A DNA stretch of 23,909 bases, from the IMG/VR virus record IMGVR_UViG_3300009417_000019, positions 1 to 23,909 of that record. The stretch is one strand, 5' to 3'. Made by a program: the position numbers and the translations under genes. Numbering within the stretch: the first letter of the stretch is position 1; each line of letters opens with the position of its first letter. The stretch is from a virus. The notes beneath the pieces were generated by a model, which saw only the letters and a program-made list of their open reading frames with translations, had not been told where the DNA came from and did no database searches. Of this stretch, positions 1,287 through 3,518 are shown one piece after another.

Positions 1287-2177
1287 ATGTATTTCGAAAC
1301 AAAAAATGAGATCACAAACAGTCTCAAATCACACATCGCAAAAAAAAGATTGAGTCAACGTCAAGTAGCTGATCTGCTAGGTGTCAATGTTGCCACAATC
1401 AACAATGTACTTACGCGAAAGTGGGAAACAAAAATCAACCTTATTTCTACTGAAATGTGGGCACGACTAAAAGTGTTCACTGGCATCCAAACTGATGTCG
1501 TTAGAGCAACTCAAAACCTAGTCACTGTACAAAATGTAGTTGAAAGAGCTCGTAAGCTCAACAAGATGTATTCAATAGTTGCTGAGCCTGGTTATGGCAA
1601 AACAACTGCCTTAGAATACCTAGCAAGTCGAACAGACGAAACTTACTACCTCTTAGTTGATAAGTACCACAGACCGCCAACCTTTCTTCGTGACATCGGC
1701 AAATCGATGGGACTACATGTTGAGGGCAAAGCAGGGTATTGCAGAGACAAGGTTGTCAGCGAATTGAAGAAAAAAGAAAACCCGGTCTTTCTGTTAGACG
1801 ACATGGGTAAAGCGAACAATCTTTTATTTCCTGTTATACAGAATCTGTATGATTTGACTGTCAATAGAGGTCATGGCGCAATCGTGATTGCTGGAGTTGA
1901 AGAACTAAGAAGCAAGGTCAATAAAATGCGAGGTAAAGGACGAGGAGGATTTCCAGAATTCAATCGTCGAGTTGCTAGATGGATAGACCTGAAGAAACCA
2001 ACAGTCGCGGAGTATGGTCAGATGGCTTCTGATTTTGGTATCCAGGATAAGAAGTCTATTCAGTTCTTGTATCGCAACTGTGGCAACTTAGCTAGTCTCA
2101 AAGACACACTTGAAGAGGCTGCATTTGAAGCTGAAAACGACATTATTACTTATGACCACTTACTTGCAGTTAGCTAA
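1287..2177 (+). CDS. MuB-like AAA+ ATPase, transposition target activator
   Basis: A 296-residue ATPase expected to bind target DNA as an ATP-dependent filament and deliver it to the transposase. Residues about 20-60 form a helix-turn-helix (LSQRQVADLLGVNVATINN), matching the N-terminal DNA-binding domain of MuB. The AAA+ core follows, with Walker A at about 99-107 (AEPGYGKTT), Walker B at about 166-172 (PVFLLDD) and a sensor-1-like strand near 199-205 (IVIAGVEE). The ATG at 1287 is preceded by an AT-rich leader with no Shine-Dalgarno. It follows the transposase by 57 nt, the usual A-B order in Mu-like phages, and its TAA overlaps the next ATG (TAATG), suggesting translational coupling. Confidence 0.93.
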   Translation: MYFETKNEITNSLKSHIAKKRLSQRQVADLLGVNVATINNVLTRKWETKINLISTEMWARLKVFTGIQTDVVRATQNLVTVQNVVERARKLNKMYSIVAEPGYGKTTALEYLASRTDETYYLLVDKYHRPPTFLRDIGKSMGLHVEGKAGYCRDKVVSELKKKENPVFLLDDMGKANNLLFPVIQNLYDLTVNRGHGAIVIAGVEELRSKVNKMRGKGRGGFPEFNRRVARWIDLKKPTVAEYGQMASDFGIQDKKSIQFLYRNCGNLASLKDTLEEAAFEAENDIITYDHLLAVS

Positions 2178-2548: not shown

Positions 2549-3034
2549 ATGTTTACATCAAAAAAAATCCATAAGGATAGCCTACAAGGTCTTTATGAAG
2601 GCTATTCAAACGCTACGGCTGAGCTCGTTAAAATCGAGACGAAAGAAACTGAGGAGATTAATAAGATCCTTAAAAAGAATAGCACAAAGAAAAACGTGTT
2701 GGCTGAAATTAAAACTAACCTCTTAGAAAAAATGGAAGCCTGGGCGACTGAAAACAAAGATCAGTTTTCAGACAAAAAGAGTCTTGAAGTTCTTGGTGGC
2801 TCTGTTGGCTTTAGATCTGGAAAAGCTAAGGTTGTGCTTCCAGTTAAGGAAAAACTGGAGATCGCAATTGCAACCCTTAAGGAGCGTGAGCTTAACACCT
2901 TTCTCATTGAAAAAACCGACATCTCCAAAAGTGCATTTATCACCAACAGCGGAAACCCTAGGATCAAAGAACTAATGGACGAGCTGGGCATAAGAATTAA
3001 GAAAGAAGATTCCTTCTTTGTCAAGTTGAAGTAG
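2549..3034 (+). CDS. gam: host-nuclease inhibitor Gam-like protein
   Basis: A 161-residue protein with the layout of Mu Gam, a Ku-like dimer that binds double-stranded DNA ends and shields them from exonucleases such as RecBCD/AddAB. A long charged helical N-terminal half (about 1-75) is followed by the family's beta hairpin with GFRSGKAKV near residues 87-95, then a FLIEKTDISKSA segment near 118-129 and a short C-terminal beta unit (GIRIKKEDSFFVKL). These match the order wR-xx-V, then xxKxA, then GIxIxxxExFxI seen in Phage_Gam proteins. It lies in the early operon downstream of the A-B pair, as in Mu. The similarity is by pattern, not by alignment score. Confidence 0.8.
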   Translation: MFTSKKIHKDSLQGLYEGYSNATAELVKIETKETEEINKILKKNSTKKNVLAEIKTNLLEKMEAWATENKDQFSDKKSLEVLGGSVGFRSGKAKVVLPVKEKLEIAIATLKERELNTFLIEKTDISKSAFITNSGNPRIKELMDELGIRIKKEDSFFVKLK

Positions 3035-3048
3035 TTGGGGAACTGGTT

Positions 3049-3106
3049 TCCGATGTAGCTCAAAATGGGAGCATGCGCCATGTGGGTTCGAATCCCACCA
3101 TCGGAG
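3049..3106 (+). ncRNA. tRNA-like element lacking an anticodon arm
   Basis: This 58-nt sequence folds as a tRNA without a normal anticodon arm. Acceptor stem: TCCGATG (3049-3055) pairs with CATCGGA (3099-3105), 7 of 7 Watson-Crick, followed by discriminator G3106. TA at 3056-3057 matches positions 8-9. D arm: GCTC (3058-3061), loop AAAATGG containing the conserved GG, GAGC (3069-3072). T arm: GTGGG, loop TTCGAAT, CCCAC (3082-3098), canonical in every position. Between D and T arms there are only 9 nt (ATGCGCCAT, 3073-3081) where about 23 are normal; they could form a 3-bp ATG/CAT mini-hairpin with loop CGC. CCA is not encoded (GCAATA follows). The element fills the gap between gam and the gemA-like gene in the same orientation. 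It cannot decode as drawn. It may be a processing signal for RNase P/RNase Z in the early mRNA, a decoy RNA, or a decayed tRNA. Confidence 0.8.
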
Positions 3107-3122
3107 CAATAATATAGAAATA

Positions 3123-3518
3123 ATGAAACGTACTATTAGTCAAAATAAAGAATTGTATGGGTTGCTTAATCGGCTTCAAATATTGGATCAAAAATCTGAA
3201 CTAGTTCTAATCTATACAAACCATCGAACTGAGTCTTCATCCAAAATGACCAAGGCGGAATGTGAGCGAATGTTGATCGATTTGAGAGGTCAAAAAAGCA
3301 TGACAGAAAAGAGATCCGATCGGATGAGAAAGAAGATCATTTCCATGATGGTACACGAGCTTGGATGGACTATGGATAAGCTTTATCAGTTTTGTATCAA
3401 AAGTGGCTATCTCAAGAAGCCATTGAACGACTACAGTTATGAGGAGCTGCCTTTACTAGTCACTCAATTTGGAAATATTCTCGAATCGTACATCCCTAAA
3501 CTATTAACTGATGATTAA
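3123..3518 (+). CDS. GemA-like (Mu gp16, DUF1018-type) regulatory protein
   Basis: A 131-residue protein whose pattern resembles the GemA/DUF1018 family of Mu-like phages, linked to modulation of host DNA topology and gene expression. Visible parts are an N-terminal helical segment (NKELYGLLNRLQI), a middle segment with MTKAECERMLIDLR equivalent to the family's LTxxExxxlLxxLR, and a C-terminal half with KKIISMMVHELGW and FCIKSGYLKKPLNDYSYEE, matching the family's KirxLwxxLG and FvxrqtGvxxlxwLtxxe segments. It is transcribed just after Gam and the tRNA-like element. Early operon position supports the call, but identity is by motif only and the molecular role is not well known even in Mu. Confidence 0.65.
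   Translation: MKRTISQNKELYGLLNRLQILDQKSELVLIYTNHRTESSSKMTKAECERMLIDLRGQKSMTEKRSDRMRKKIISMMVHELGWTMDKLYQFCIKSGYLKKPLNDYSYEELPLLVTQFGNILESYIPKLLTDD

Follow-up and report, generated by a model that had tools for sequence, protein, structure and literature searches.

The window analysed here, a virus record of 23,909 bases carrying MuA/MuB-like, Gam-like and terminase genes, contains a tRNA-like element of 58 nt whose acceptor (7/7 pairs), D (4/4) and T (5/5) arms are fully paired and which has no anticodon arm. The element is, with near certainty, a genuine selected RNA built on the acceptor-T stack and the D/T elbow of tRNA, and it belongs to what appears to be a widespread, unnamed and seemingly undescribed class of tRNA mimics in phages, comprising dozens of distinct members from several phyla. 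As it has no code-reading part, it must do something besides translate, and its two leading candidate roles, both proposed in the earlier note, are that of a processing signal and that of a decoy acting in trans. No published description of an armless phage class was found in the open literature, most subscription papers lying outside the search, and tRNA-like structures without usable anticodons are already known from mammals and plant mitochondria. Phage annotation skips the genes of this class or files them as undetermined tRNAs. An armless element cannot decode, thus separating decoding from all other uses of the tRNA fold, and the class offers a natural test of RNase P/RNase Z cutting of mRNA by phages, or of tRNA decoys that evade tRNA-targeting immunity.

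Structure and setting of the element

The full Rfam tRNA model (RF00005) matches the window with borders exactly at 3049–3106 (38.5 bits, gathering threshold 29, E = 5.6e-5), and these borders together with direct reading confirm the perfect acceptor, D and T arms, with nine nucleotides between the D and T arms, that the earlier note had described (Table 1). By direct reading, T8 and A9 stand between the acceptor 5' strand and the D arm, and the D loop is AAAATGG, with A15 and G18G19. The elbow bases and the canonical T loop of a functional tRNA are present, and the anticodon arm with its 7-nt loop is absent, only the 9-nt linker standing in its place. The trailer is CAA, where C74 is present as in tRNA genes and no CCA is encoded. 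ARAGORN, which needs an anticodon arm, reports neither a tRNA nor a tmRNA at the element.

The minimum free energy (MFE) structure from single-sequence folding consists of the acceptor, D and T arms and shows a mild gain over shuffled sequences (z = -1.26); as this gain is only mild, the case for the element rests on comparison. The 3-bp mini-hairpin (ATG/CAT) once suggested for the linker is absent from the MFE structure and was rejected, T3081 fitting better as base U48 in a Levitt pair with A15.

Table 1. Features of the tRNA-like element and of neighbouring genes in the window
Feature	Positions	Strand	Evidence
Anticodon-arm-less tRNA-like element, 58 nt	3049..3106	+	Rfam tRNA 38.5 bits; class model R1 51.9 bits
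Acceptor 5' strand TCCGATG	3049..3055	+	7/7 pairs with 3099-3105; column covaries across 67 elements, rows that had been selected for pairing
D arm GCTC 3058-3061 / GAGC 3069-3072	3058..3072	+	4/4 pairs
9-nt linker ATGCGCCAT in place of anticodon arm; last base U48	3073..3081	+	Sequence reading, 15-48 covariation
T arm GTGGG 3082-3086 - TTCGAAT - CCCAC 3094-3098	3082..3098	+	5/5 pairs, canonical T loop
Acceptor 3' strand CATCGGA	3099..3105	+	Pairs with 3049-3055; covariation
Discriminator G73 (G3106) and trailer CAA	3106..3109	+	Sequence reading
gam, upstream gene	2549..3034	+	PF07352 E 2.3e-18; phrog_491
Downstream gene, 131 aa, function unassigned	3123..3518	+	phrog_14123 E 2.5e-8 only; no Pfam
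MuB-like DNA transposition protein	1287..2177	+	phrog_296 E 2.2e-37

The element lies between co-directional genes: it starts 14 nt after the gam stop, and 16 nt separate its end from the next ATG (3123). It had been placed in sense orientation between gam and a gemA-like gene; gam stands, by its PF07352 match, and the gemA label falls, as the downstream gene has no PF06252 match, finds its sole phrog match in one of unknown function and shows no BLASTP similarity to GemA of a related prophage. The left end of the window looks truncated, as the transposase ORF starts at position 3. The layout is like that of Winogradskyella phage Peternella, with early genes on the plus strand, a head/terminase block on the minus strand and then the plus strand again.

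A class of armless elements in unrelated phages

Close relatives of the window, sought in sequence collections by short peptide patterns and by DNA, were not found, and the design itself was therefore searched, with a pattern of consensus D arm, short linker and consensus T arm that leaves the acceptor stem free except for its last base. The scan returned at least 119 stretches from viral contigs and 100 stretches from 257 Gb of genome contigs, with at least 224 pattern matches, at least 103 of which (at least 86 distinct) pass an acceptor/T-stem filter (at least 6/7 acceptor pairs, a good T stem, a linker above 5 nt and no N); the chance of random sequence pairing the acceptor that well is about 1%. 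Among the 103 matches listed, 85 come from the viral set (window included) and 18 from genome contigs, at least 7 of the latter being identical to IMG/VR contigs. The elements derive mostly from phages or prophages of several phyla, and the titles of records containing them name Streptococcus, Lacticaseibacillus, Microbacterium, Oleispira, Dysgonomonas, Dysosmobacter and others. The window element is thus one member of a class spread across many unrelated phages, and not a peculiarity of the gam-gemA junction.

Class membership is defined by the score with a covariance model (R1), a linker of 6–13 nt and the pair 15-48. R1 gives 56–72 bits to pattern-found elements and at most 55.4 to other tRNA matches, and ranks a pattern-found element first in all 11 host genomes that were examined. 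The window element, which is among the 67 training sequences, belongs to the class by its R1 score (51.9 bits, E = 2.7e-14), its linker of 9 nt and its A15-U48 pair.

Linker length has its mode at 8 nt (39/86 distinct elements among the matches listed). A second scan, limited to TTCGATTCC and listed completely, gave 23 matches with linkers of 5–13 nt (the acceptor being good in 16) as well as another group with linkers of 15–20 nt, many with apparently shrunken anticodon hairpins; counts climb again near normal tRNA length, and the short-linker mode is therefore not the sole peak. In L222-L277, the phage tRNA-like elements with these 15–20-nt linkers, many anticodon hairpins look too short for a normal anticodon loop.

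Three kinds of match were removed as false positives: those with 5-nt "linkers", which on visual reading consist of the anticodon arm plus the 3' portion of an ordinary tRNA (anticodon CGT), those containing N, and chromosomal Bacteroidota matches with unpaired acceptors in or near tRNA clusters. A 180-kb phage contig (L026) carries three different armless elements, and L013 two pattern matches. A separate group (L002, L004, L027, L035, L044, L055, L060, L062, L074 and L112), several of which are on large phage contigs, shares the linker AACTGGYGAC and a good T arm with a poorly paired acceptor, which may be located elsewhere. On chromosomal contigs of Bacteroidota, several of which contain tRNA clusters (L137, L209, L165, L170 and L172, near pattern matches, and also L193 and L220), tRNA halves look permuted, with the 3' half (anticodon-stem strand, V loop, T arm and acceptor 3' strand) directly upstream of the matching 5' half, as in L137 (TCTAT..CTTCCCC A .. 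GGGGAAG..ATAGA); in L172 an ORF resembling slipin, read by eye, lies downstream of the permuted halves.

Elements of Mu-like phages of Bacteroidota

MuB searches of about 395 Bacteroidota genomes identified distant Mu-like prophages (22–27% identity where aligned), the MuB alignment being too diverse to serve for a scan. Among 42 Mu-like loci (window included) scanned for a T arm and a paired acceptor, 11 convincing elements were found, all 11 in sense orientation and in the early region, and in 11/11 Mu-like cases the base after the discriminator is C74. Weak T-arm-like matches in these loci that had no TTCGANY loop were put down to chance, L309 was dropped, and the elements of L307 and L430 were re-read by eye.

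The acceptor and T arm form the invariant core of these elements; the anticodon region is anything between 0 and about 65 nt long, and the D arm is lost in L304, L361, L346 and L358. L305 carries a classic armless element, L361 and L304 are minihelices with a loop of 12–13 nt, L313 has a D arm of 2 bp, L346 and L358 contain another hairpin, L357 has extra arms, and L307 and L352 are tRNA-like with other middles. A full-length tRNA in a related prophage, which the earlier note had named as a finding that would speak against it, is seen in L350, which carries a complete tRNA-Gln(TTG) in the same stretch; in the other related elements the middle arms are missing, reduced or replaced, L350 being the exception.

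A stop codon lies 11–16 nt upstream of the element in the window, L304, L357, L358 and L361, and the element is often 13–38 nt ahead of the next ORF. The neighbouring gene is gam in the window and L313, GemA in L357 and a transposase gene in L305 and L307; DUF3164 lies a few hundred bases upstream in L304 and, by phrog_846, in L361. A Gam-based scan of viral contigs identified elements just downstream of gam in L430 and L431, and one in L425, recognised by eye, upstream of a MuB-like gene. The two scans bear out the expectation that related Mu-like prophages carry sense tRNA-like elements with re-paired stems near gam. The element stands just before the transposase gene in Dysgonomonas, and it is present in 7/7 records examined of P. 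gingivalis Mu-like phages, 14–15 nt upstream of tnpA where measured. Examination of Peternella, a cultured Mu-like flavophage, gave no convincing element.

In two of the P. gingivalis Mu-like phages (L407:877-997 and L410:1282-1402) a branched insert of ~65 nt with two hairpins replaces the anticodon arm, and the acceptor, D and T arms are retained despite it. GGTT or similar bases (GGTTT, GGGTG) often stand just 5' of the element in mid-operon Mu-like cases, as at 3043-3048 of the window and in the flanks of L304, L346, L358, L352, L313 and L361.

Evidence for selection on the RNA

The acceptor and T stems covary across 67 distinct elements (16 pairs; score 0.728 vs 0.143 shuffled); as these rows were chosen for acceptor pairing, the independent evidence is the pair 15-48 and the conservation of the element relative to its flanks. 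The pair 15-48, which joins D-loop base 15 to linker-end base 48 and corresponds to the tRNA Levitt pair, was not a selection criterion. Among the matches listed, 70 of the 86 distinct elements have it as G-C and 12 as A-U, with 4 exceptions (p = 8e-13, or 9e-12 with near-duplicates removed), and the position neighbouring it shows no association. GG is found in the D loop of 85/86 elements among the matches listed. Element identity is 87–98% in L028/L073/L077/L095, where flanks share 62–85%, 95–98% in L057/L111/L036 (flanks 61–75%) and 90% in L015/L017 (flanks 62–67%); the Microbacterium-type (L040) and L006/L012/L096 groups show little or no such contrast.

The covariation within the class and the conservation above the flanks support the earlier view that selection, and not decay, accounts for the intact acceptor, D and T arms and elbow. 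The reading as a functionless, decaying tRNA gene from which the anticodon arm has been lost is largely refuted and very unlikely, as at least 86 distinct elements have perfect or near-perfect re-paired stems, elements are conserved above their flanks, linker lengths are not evenly spread but have a peak at 8 nt, and the position in Mu-like early operons is recurrent. Decay would be consistent with the intact tRNA-Gln(TTG) of L350, with terminal processing signals weaker than those of tRNAs, and with the pair 15-48, which could have been inherited from parent tRNAs. The least probable reading, for which we see hardly any room, is a DNA-level feature (an attachment, recombination or transposition site) that resembles tRNA by chance. 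tRNA genes are common phage attachment sites, which would suit such a feature; however, covariation involves both strands of the acceptor as well as the tertiary pair, a feature that only an RNA requires, Mu-like phages use transposition to integrate, and conservation extends beyond the end of the T arm.

Comparison with known systems

Phage-encoded tRNAs fall into the same Rfam tRNA family, and the window element differs from them in having no anticodon arm. The tRNA-like domain of tmRNA has an acceptor and a T arm and no decoding anticodon arm. The window element differs from tmRNA in having C3-G70 in place of G3-U70, no tag ORF and no ARAGORN tmRNA match.

The mammalian mascRNA and menRNA (of MALAT1 and MEN-beta) likewise have a tRNA acceptor, T arm and elbow and no usable anticodon. 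These mammalian RNAs are embedded in a longer transcript and recognised by RNase P and RNase Z, at whose cleavage sites they are located, and they employ elbow mimicry (PMC11693755). Unlike the phage class, they belong to eukaryotic nuclear lncRNAs and carry a longer stem with a compact loop at the site of the anticodon arm; the likeness is one of fold and is not drawn from sequence homology. The t-elements of plant mitochondria are tRNA-like structures in transcripts that are cut by RNase P (PMC4919922), but they are organellar and served by a protein-only RNase P, and no phage counterpart of them was found. The tRNA-like module of YrlA is a bacterial tRNA mimic that is left uncut by an anticodon nuclease and has been proposed as a decoy (PMC7790460). 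It is part of a Y RNA in an rsr-yrlBA-rtcBA operon, whereas the window contains no Rfam Y RNA match and no such operon, the neighbours of the element being Mu-like early genes and not rsr/rtcBA.

Possible functions

For the Mu-like element the best explanation, which we put at slightly less than an even chance, is that it punctuates the polycistronic early mRNA in the manner of a tRNA and would also give rise to a tRNA-like RNA. The acceptor-T stack would be recognised by RNase P and/or RNase Z of the host, with cuts at about 3048/3049 and after 3106; these may part the gam transcript from the one downstream, which would keep a short leader of 16 nt, and may release a tRNA-like RNA of roughly 58–61 nt. 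Punctuation is favoured because a sense acceptor-T stack lies between early genes and C74 is present in 11/11 Mu-like cases. An acceptor-T stack alone can be a substrate of RNase P. To find where to cleave, RNase P and RNase Z recognise the elbow of a tRNA and measure off the distance to the cut (PMC11693755), and RNase P substrates include, besides plant mitochondrial t-elements, bacterial operon mRNAs (PMC4919922).

Across the class, U(-1), which is favoured at tRNA 5' ends, precedes 31% of armless elements and 62% of the tRNAs found in viral loci, the corresponding figures for C74 are 65% and 91%, and CCA is encoded in 15% of armless elements. Outside Mu-like phages the neighbour strands are often opposite (++ 17, -+ 12, +- 7, -- 6, from crude ORF calls). 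The weak U(-1) preference and the mixed orientation of neighbours count against punctuation and favour a separate trans-acting small RNA. Such an RNA, carried as a moron-like cassette, would be a tRNA mimic occupying a host or defence protein that binds the acceptor or elbow, and it would offer no cleavable anticodon; we regard this as possible but on the doubtful side. Its occurrence in many unrelated phages, usually with no other tRNAs near (78/102 loci among the matches listed), is in line with a decoy, as are the retained elbow pair 15-48, an orientation to neighbours that is not always sense, the presence or absence of the element between sister phages (below) and the want of a constant neighbour gene: beside armless elements no constant partner was found, several lying near terminase, head, portal or transposase genes with no family dominating. 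A decoy is less easily reconciled with Mu-like elements that are always sense within the early operon and, in four of them (L304, L361, L346 and L358), no longer have a D arm and therefore have no elbow. That armless tRNA mimics acting in trans form an unnamed cross-phylum phage class, whose Bacteroidota Mu-like version is modular with its middle arm freely deleted or swapped, is likewise a minority reading; if true, such a class would deserve more than the status of a variant.

An aminoacylated minihelix that donates its amino acid outside the ribosome, another of the functions proposed in the earlier note, is disfavoured and marginally less credible even than decay. The acceptor, T arm and elbow it would need are intact, and there is a precedent in an E. 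coli tRNA-Leu that is still charged without its anticodon and variable arms (PMC9976931). However, few elements encode CCA, and the acceptor identity positions (1-72, 2-71, 3-70 and base 73) vary freely, so that no synthetase identity is shared.

The sister phages Danklef_1 and Freya_1 count against punctuation and are in line with a decoy. Polaribacter phage Danklef_1 carries a textbook member of the class (74 bits) between co-directional genes, annotated as tRNA-OTHER Undet(NNN). In Freya_1, which is about 96% identical in the aligned parts, the corresponding genes are 22 nt apart with no element between them; the Danklef element is thus not required for expression of the downstream gene, and it behaves like a removable cassette. 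As both phages are cultured, direct testing is possible. A terminator-like hairpin (AAAGCCTTTA..TAAAGGCTTTTTT; approximately L221:5959-5995) stands directly before the Danklef element and likewise speaks against punctuation.
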